Made by a program: the position numbers and the translations under genes. This document shows positions 1-31,994 of a stretch of DNA of 32,073 bases, one piece after another (within the stretch, counting starts at the first letter, position 1; every line of letters begins with the position of its first letter). The notes below the pieces were generated by a model. It was not told where the DNA came from. It searched no databases and worked only from the letters and a program-made list of their open reading frames with translations. The stretch is taken from positions 1 through 32,073 of the forward strand of contig LBWY01000004.1 of the NCBI GenBank assembly GCA_000995135.1, in the 5' to 3' direction. The stretch is from Parcubacteria group bacterium GW2011_GWE2_39_37 (GTDB lineage: Bacteria > Patescibacteriota > Patescibacteriia > Patescibacteriales > GWE2-39-37).

Positions 1-1035
1 GCTTTTATTTCCGTTGGGTGGTGGGCATAATCATCGATGATTATCGCGCCTTTATATTCACCCATCTTCTGCATCCGTCGAGCTGTCCCTGTGAATTCTG
101 CCAAATTTTTTCTGATATCAACCAAATCGACTTCTAGTTCAATGGAAGCGGCGATGACGGCTAGGGCATTATAAATATTATGGATACCGGAAAGTTTTAT
201 ACTGAAGCTACCAAGCTCGCTTTGACTTTTGTTAAAATCTTCCTTCGCTTTTTCATCAGAAAAATCAGCTGCATCAGCATCCACGGCCATTCTTACTTTG
301 AAAAATTGCTGTCCATCTTGCTGGCTGATATCATAGGCCATAAAATCTGCAGTATTATTGATGGCATAGCTGATCACATGGCCTCGGCAATTAACTTTGG
401 CAACCTTGTTAATCGTTTCATCATCGAAATTGGCAACCAAAAAACCTTTGCTAGGAATTTTCTTGATAAAATCAATAAAAACATTTTGATAATCTTCTAC
501 AGTAGGAAAATAATCCGGATGATCATACTCGATATTATTTAGCAAGACACCTTTGGGGTTGAAATATTGCAGCTTGTTCTGGTACTCGTCTGCTTCAACT
601 ATTAGATAATGGGAGGTATTTACTAAGCTTGAACCGTTGAACTGAGGAACCACCGAACCCACCATCACATTCGGCTTTTTCCCGGCCTGCTCCAATACAA
701 AGCCAAGCCACGCCCAAGGCAATGGCATATGGAATCGCTCGAATCTTTCCGGTTACGGCTTTGGCTACCTCTGGATTGGTCTTGCTATTATACGAGCTTG
801 AATAAACAATCAAATCGGCATCTTTGGGAATATTATTTTCATCAAATTCTTCAATGACTTTTATTCCTGCTTTTTTCAAAACCTCATCGGTCATAAAGAT
901 TTCTTTGGTGTCGCTACCGATTACTTCGATGCCGTTATCAGCAAAAAATTGAGCAAGCATTGTCATGCCAACTCCTTTTATGCCGATCATGTAAATTTTT
1001 TTAAGTTTTGTTGTGTCCATTTTATTCTCTGTCAT
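1..1035 (-). pseudogene. murC: UDP-N-acetylmuramate--L-alanine ligase MurC, frameshifted with internal deletion, truncated by window edge
   Basis: N-terminal part (frame of ORF 595..1125) reads MDTTKLKKIYMIGIKGVGMTMLAQFFADNGIEVIGSDTKE...IPYAIALG. From about 712 down to 1 a second minus-strand frame is open and reads AWLGFVLEQAGKKPNVMVGSVVPQFNGSSLVNTSHYLIVEADEYQ...GAIIIDDYAHHPTEIK. The P-loop segment expected between them is absent. Confidence 0.88.
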
Positions 1036-30136: not shown

Positions 30137-31048
30137 TTATTTTTTAATATTTAAATATTCTTTCAATGCCTGTTGCCAGGTCCTAAGTTTTGGTAATTTT
30201 GTATTGATTAAAGCCGAATATTTCGGCCTTTTTGCCGGTCTGGGGAATTTATCACTGGAAATCGCATTCACTTTGATTTTGACCCCGGCAATTTTAAATA
30301 GCTCTTTAGCCGCCTTATACCAAGTAACAGGCTTCGGGTTGATTACATGATAAATACCAAAGCCATAGTCGTCATCAATGATTTTTTTAGTCATCATTGC
30401 TAAGTCGGGGGTATAAGTAAAACAGCCTTCTTCTTCGTCCACCACATCAAGAAATTCTCTCTCTTTGCTCAGATTCAACATAACATCAAAAAAGCTCATT
30501 TTTGATAAATCACTTTCACCTTTCGGTCCAAAAAGTTTTTGTGTGCGGATGATGTACCATTTCAGTCCTCGACCGCTCAAGCGGATAATTTCTTGTTCGC
30601 CCAATAATTTTGTTTCACCATATCGATTGACCGGATCAGGTTCATCATCTTCTTTGTAGCCGGATTCGTTATTGCCATCAAAAATATAATCGGTTGAATA
30701 ATGGACAAGCATCGAGCCATTTACCAAGGCAGCTTGTGCTAGGTAACCTACCGCATCACCATTTATTTTTTTTGAGGCTTCGTAACCGTCTTCTTCTTCG
30801 CATTTATCAACCGCAGTAAAAGCAACTGCATTTATTATTATTTCTGGTTTGAGATCTTTGATTTTTTTTTCGATCAGCCCCTTGTCGGTAATATCGATTT
30901 CACTTCTGTCCCAGGCGATGATCTCATTATCCGTGTCCTCAGAAAAAACTCTTACCAATTGTTGACCTAAATTCCCTTTTGCACCCAAAATCAAAATCTT
31001 AGCACCCGTCACCTGATTAGGAAGCTTCATGTTATTGTTTGTTGCCAT
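30137..31048 (-). CDS. rfbD: dTDP-4-dehydrorhamnose reductase
   Basis: KILILGAKGNLGQQLVRVF, NAVAFTAVDKCEEE, VHYSTDYIFDGNNESGYKEDDEPDPVNRYGETKLLGE. Confidence 0.9.
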   Translation of the reverse strand: MATNNNMKLPNQVTGAKILILGAKGNLGQQLVRVFSEDTDNEIIAWDRSEIDITDKGLIEKKIKDLKPEIIINAVAFTAVDKCEEEDGYEASKKINGDAVGYLAQAALVNGSMLVHYSTDYIFDGNNESGYKEDDEPDPVNRYGETKLLGEQEIIRLSGRGLKWYIIRTQKLFGPKGESDLSKMSFFDVMLNLSKEREFLDVVDEEEGCFTYTPDLAMMTKKIIDDDYGFGIYHVINPKPVTWYKAAKELFKIAGVKIKVNAISSDKFPRPAKRPKYSALINTKLPKLRTWQQALKEYLNIKK

Positions 31049-31994
31049 ATTGCTTTTGGTAGTAATCTTTATATTCTCCGCTTTTGATCTTCTGCCACCA
31101 CTCTTGATTCTGCCTATACCAGACTACTGTCTTAGCTAGTCCGGTTTTAAAATCAACCTTAGGGTACCAGCCAAGCTCATTTTTTGCTTTGCTGATGTCC
31201 ATGGCATAGCGGAAATCATGACCTTTTCTATCTTCTACGTATTCGATCATTTCATCACCGAAGCCCATTAAATTCAAAATATTGTTTGTGATATCTAAAT
31301 TAGTCAATTCATTTTCACCACCGAGGCCATAAGTTTCACCGATTCGGCCTTTTTTGATTATCGCTTCAACCCCGGCATTATGGTCATCCACATGGATCCA
31401 ATCCCTGATGTTTCCACCCTTGCCATAAACAGGCACCTTTTTACCTTCAATAAGATTAGTAACGAATAATGGGATTAATTTTTCCGGGAATTGATAAGGA
31501 CCGTAATTGTTGGTGCAATTAGAAATTGTAATCGGTAACTTATGAGTATGCCAATATGCTCTAACCAAGTGATCAGAAGCGGCTTTGGAGGCGCTATAAG
31601 GACTGCGTGGATCATATGGCGTATTCTCCTGAAACTTAGGATCAACCAAATCAAGTGCGCCAAAGACCTCATCTGTGGAAATATGATGACCCAATACATT
31701 GGTCCTAACAAAAGATCCTCCATCAATTATTGAGCGATCAACATGTGTTTCTGCCGCAAAATGAACAATCAGATCAACTTCTTTCACGATATCATTTACT
31801 AAATCTTTATCGCAGATATCACCTTTGATAAATTTATAATTAGGATTGCCTTCACAGCCTTTTAAGTTTTCTAAATTACCTGCATAGGTCAAAGAATCCA
31901 GATTGATAATAGAATCTTCTGGATTATTTTCCAGCCAATAGTGGATAAAATTTGCTCCGATAAATCCGGCGCCACCTGTTACTAATAATTTCAT
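31032..31994 (-). CDS. rfbB: dTDP-glucose 4,6-dehydratase with apparent internal in-frame deletion
   Basis: KLLVTGGAGFIGANFIHYW, HFAAETHVDRSI, STDEVFG, YSASKAASDHLVRAY, NCTNNYGPYQFPEKLIPL; reads FVRTNVLG-HHISTDEV without the usual intervening helix. Confidence 0.9.
   Translation of the reverse strand: MKLLVTGGAGFIGANFIHYWLENNPEDSIINLDSLTYAGNLENLKGCEGNPNYKFIKGDICDKDLVNDIVKEVDLIVHFAAETHVDRSIIDGGSFVRTNVLGHHISTDEVFGALDLVDPKFQENTPYDPRSPYSASKAASDHLVRAYWHTHKLPITISNCTNNYGPYQFPEKLIPLFVTNLIEGKKVPVYGKGGNIRDWIHVDDHNAGVEAIIKKGRIGETYGLGGENELTNLDITNNILNLMGFGDEMIEYVEDRKGHDFRYAMDISKAKNELGWYPKVDFKTGLAKTVVWYRQNQEWWQKIKSGEYKDYYQKQYGNKQ

Follow-up and report, generated by a model that had tools for sequence, protein, structure and literature searches.

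A frame-shifted murC lacking its P-loop in a Patescibacteria draft genome most probably reflects a local assembly error that recurs at other sites

The murC gene at the beginning of the analysed window, the 32,073-nucleotide stretch that constitutes the entire contig C4 (G000:C4) of a 970-kb draft genome that comprises 49 contigs and has an estimated completeness of 82.6%, is interrupted at positions 709-716 by what is almost certainly a local assembly error. The organism's own murC is in all likelihood intact and ordinary, because frame-blind losses of 40-65 nt are the signature of mis-sized scaffold joins, and an error of assembly is favoured since such losses recur across this genome, whereas two relatives treated alike have none of this size that break the frame. 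The nearest named relatives of the draft genome are Patescibacteria, many with Falkowbacteria or Parcubacteria labels, and it can be described as a Patescibacteria/Falkowbacteria-like metagenome-assembled genome.

As assembled, murC occupies two frames on the minus strand, an N-terminal one (1020-709) and a C-terminal one (716-3). A preliminary description made from the sequence of the window had placed the passage from IPYAIALG to AWLGFVLEQAG at about 707-720, and had proposed that some 20-25 residues with the P-loop were missing and that the frame changed there; these points held on closer analysis, as the frames meet at approximately 709-716, 21 residues are absent by comparison with intact relatives, and a net loss of approximately 65 nt shifts the frame. 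The features at this end of the window are the following.

Window 709..1020, minus strand: N-terminal part of murC (Mur ligase N domain), starting at 1020 with MDTTKLKKIYMIGIKGVGM and running to ...IPYAIALG; PF01225 at 8.7e-17, TIGR01082 profile positions 1-94, aligned to one relative over residues 1-108.
Window 709..716, minus strand: presumed faulty join; 21 P-loop residues (~65 nt net) absent relative to the relatives' constant 21-residue segment, frame shifted, no N.
Window 3..716, minus strand: middle and start of the C-terminal domain of murC (AWLGFVLEQAG...DDYAHHPTEIK), running off the contig end; PF08245 at 3e-21, TIGR01082 profile positions 117-331.
Window 1..99: exact 99-bp overlap with C18:30740-30838, the end of contig C18, which holds the rest of murC.

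A Mur ligase N domain of the MurC type is present (window 595-1035, minus strand; TIGR01082 77 bits, PF01225 62 bits), as are the middle and C-terminal domains including DDYAHHPTE (window 3-728, minus strand, together with C18:30388-30838), while the P-loop G[TS]HGK[ST]T is missing from murC as assembled. The TIGR01082 scores of 77 and 188 bits are those of the separate, unjoined pieces, and the curated cut-off of 335 bits refers to the whole protein. Together with the part on C18, the pieces line up with MurC in the right order, with identity normal for the group (59-69% for the piece at 3..716 against the majority of intact relatives among the better matches), and no further lesion was seen elsewhere along the gene; the assembled gene differs from MurC of the TIGR01082 family in lacking the 21-residue segment and in being distributed over two frames and two contigs. 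Intact relatives carry between ALG and AWLG a constant segment of 21 residues, xxFNxxYGIAVxGSHGKTTTT. Aligning relatives' MurC, a check proposed in the preliminary description, gave no sister gene with the same junction: the P-loop is kept in 90 of the 90 distinct relatives that cover the segment (as GTHGKTS in L088), the MurC of L084 beginning at a contig start that cuts it, and a natural MurC clade devoid of the P-loop was on this ground rejected. The MurC of G002, a genome of the same family (L006), has GSAGKTTTT for GSHGKTTTT, an otherwise conserved histidine being replaced by alanine. Direct-repeat recombination was likewise rejected as the cause of the junction, as both of the CTTGG-like words beside it are kept, which is not the product expected of recombination.

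The downstream frame is, as previously described, open to the window edge and includes DDYAHHPTEI, but the gene does not end there. A search with the MurC of an intact relative located its C-terminal third at C18:30388-30838, on the minus strand and in one open frame. The 99 bases common to the ends of C18 and C4 lie inside murC and fit a break in a k-mer graph with k of approximately 99 or 100, and their identity therefore indicates that the assembler split murC between C18 and C4 at a point some hundreds of bases away from the faulty join. The neighbouring murG, ftsW, mraY and murA within the window look intact, in agreement with what had been said of the neighbouring mur genes. Apart from that of MurC, Mur-ligase middle domains were found in the bin only in a MurF-like protein on C2, which has a membrane-like N-terminal stretch, and in a MurD-like protein on C11, both of which keep the P-loop. 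MurE was not recognised in the bin, the three Mur-ligase middle domains being those of MurC and of the MurF-like and MurD-like proteins, and this may reflect incompleteness.

The ABC transporter that adjoins murC on C18 lacks 18 residues, and for this reason a survey of the genome was undertaken. It covered ~660 of the 970 kb, which were compared with G002, with G040 (same order) and with further loci, and counted sharp losses between two conserved flanks. Gaps that keep the frame and lie where conservation is loose or the sequence of low complexity (e.g. L130, L231, L234, L236, L135) were left uncounted because relatives have similar ones. Twelve sharp losses of 40-65 nt were found, in unrelated conserved genes on six contigs.

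C4 709-716: murC, loss of 65 nt, out of frame.
C18:5757: P-type ATPase, loss of 50 nt beyond a run of 27 N, out of frame.
C6:742: CAP-domain protein, loss of 43 nt, out of frame.
C10:4683: class I/II aminotransferase, loss of 49 nt over the SPNNPTG motif, out of frame.
C10:9618: Mqo/DAO-like oxidoreductase, loss of 61 nt, out of frame.
C6:36713: Elp3 (elp3), loss of 62 nt, out of frame.
C8:25941: ClpC/ClpB-like ATPase (clpC-like, named from the Clp_N and ClpB domains of the G002 orthologue), loss of 58 nt, out of frame.
C8:32176: methionyl-tRNA formyltransferase (fmt), loss of 46 nt, out of frame.
C8:35225: penicillin-binding (PBP) transpeptidase, loss of 50 nt, out of frame.
C2:38325: UMPH-1 nucleotidase, loss of 40 nt, out of frame.
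Window 31032..31994, minus strand: rmlB-like dTDP-glucose 4,6-dehydratase, loss of 48 nt near 31688 relative to the G002 and G040 orthologues, in frame.
C18:28757: ABC ATPase, loss of 54 nt, in frame.

The mean loss is 52 nt (SD 8), individual sizes carrying an error of a few nt as the relatives used are only ~50-75% identical. The frame is broken in 10 of the 12 cases, where two thirds would be expected without selection (binomial p 0.36). The rmlB-like gene in the window, without 16 highly conserved residues that read TQVLLDAAKNNGNIRF in relatives, belongs to the same class of defect as murC, and the ABC exporter adjoining murC (L116 1163-2893; C18, minus strand) has lost, in frame, 18 residues that include the H-loop (HRLST...). 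A single unlucky lesion confined to murC is ruled out by these twelve sites. Ns occur at just one of them, the P-type ATPase, where a native run of 27 N stands at C18:5761-5787 and ~50 nt are still missing beyond it; this site is a scaffold gap sized approximately 50 nt too short, a shortfall close to what is lost, with no Ns, at the remaining sites. A second N run, of 15 bases, is present at L226 18597-18611 (C6:38597-38611), where the sample offers no clear homologue.

The same procedure applied to the relatives returned no frame-breaking loss of net 30-100 nt, neither in G002 (78,609 and 61,944 aligned residues) nor in G040 (43,141 and 60,912 aligned residues). When genes were compared with those of other relatives, 9 of 230 were affected in this genome and 0 of 368 in its relatives (counts and Fisher p 0.0002 for the G002 comparison alone). 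The in-frame gaps of G002 and G040 fall mostly where the sequence is variable, which is the pattern that natural differences in loops should give. Natural deletions retained in such conserved genes are expected to favour the frame.

Three readings of the junction had been offered initially, namely an assembly error, a very recent pseudogene and the supply of MurC from elsewhere, and it is the first that the genome-wide losses and their absence from relatives strongly support. A real and very recent pseudogenisation, in which a deletion of ~65 nt removed the P-loop and left a cell without MurC or dependent on outside precursors, would agree with the clean junction, devoid of N, with the failure of a bin search to find a second murC or a stray P-loop fragment, and with a contig break 0.7 kb from the junction, which is compatible with strain variation. 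It is nevertheless very unlikely, as a loss of the same size affects at least 11 other genes of the assembly, one of them at an N run, with no frame-breaking counterpart in relatives, as the remainder of murC is undamaged and its neighbours murG, ftsW, mraY and murA are intact, and as no relative covering the segment has lost the P-loop; the biological loss by deletion that had been put forward is unsupported. A real process that deletes stretches of ~50 nt at random throughout the genomes of this lineage, the P-loop of murC being one casualty among many conserved genes truly broken, would account for the clustering of the losses at 40-65 nt and for their indifference to reading frame, and would mean that the lineage survives with many broken conserved genes. 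This is hardly credible, however, given that fmt, the clpC-like gene, the PBP gene, murC and others would be broken simultaneously in a small genome, that one site coincides with a scaffold N-run, and that two relatives are free of frame-breaking events of such size.

That MurC function is provided by another gene, or restored by a programmed frame change over the junction, is an exceedingly improbable proposition. The two murC frames overlap, so that joining them by a change of frame is possible, but no such change could restore 21 absent P-loop residues. The search for a second murC, also proposed earlier, found neither one nor a stray P-loop fragment in the bin, 82.6% complete, and the remaining Mur-ligase middle domains found there are only of the MurF and MurD kinds.

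On the favoured explanation, the assembly would have brought together two pieces of contig from a single ordinary murC and omitted the ~65 nt between them. The likeliest fault is a scaffold join for which the gap estimate was too short and which was written without Ns; a scaffolding or local-assembly step would place neighbouring pieces ~50 nt too close, and no Ns would be inserted where the gap was estimated at zero or below. The sizing of scaffold gaps would then be the step that failed, and reads would be predicted to contain the missing segment. The same fault most likely operated at the other sites with ~50 nt lost each time, although the narrow range of 40-65 nt, mostly without Ns, is not fully explained in this way. 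Chen and co-workers (PMC7111523) describe this class of fault as local assembly errors or unsupported joins in metagenome-assembled genomes. The present case resembles such local assembly errors and mis-sized scaffold joins in its recurrent, frame-blind short losses at many places, one with residual Ns, and in the k-mer-length overlaps between contig ends; it differs in that the portions of the paper drawn on here treat unsupported joins in general and do not report a size of ~50 nt. At least 12 conserved genes of this draft genome seem broken or devoid of active-site motifs, and claims of gene or pathway loss made from it, the absence of a cell wall among them, need read support.

Directly upstream of murC, at approximately 1030-1200 of the window, an element is present with imperfect inverted ends, TGTCATCTCGA...GGATAA and TTATCC...TCGAGATGACAG. 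It looks like a member of a MITE-like or intergenic repeat family, a judgement based on its 27 matches in the genome, which are mostly partial.
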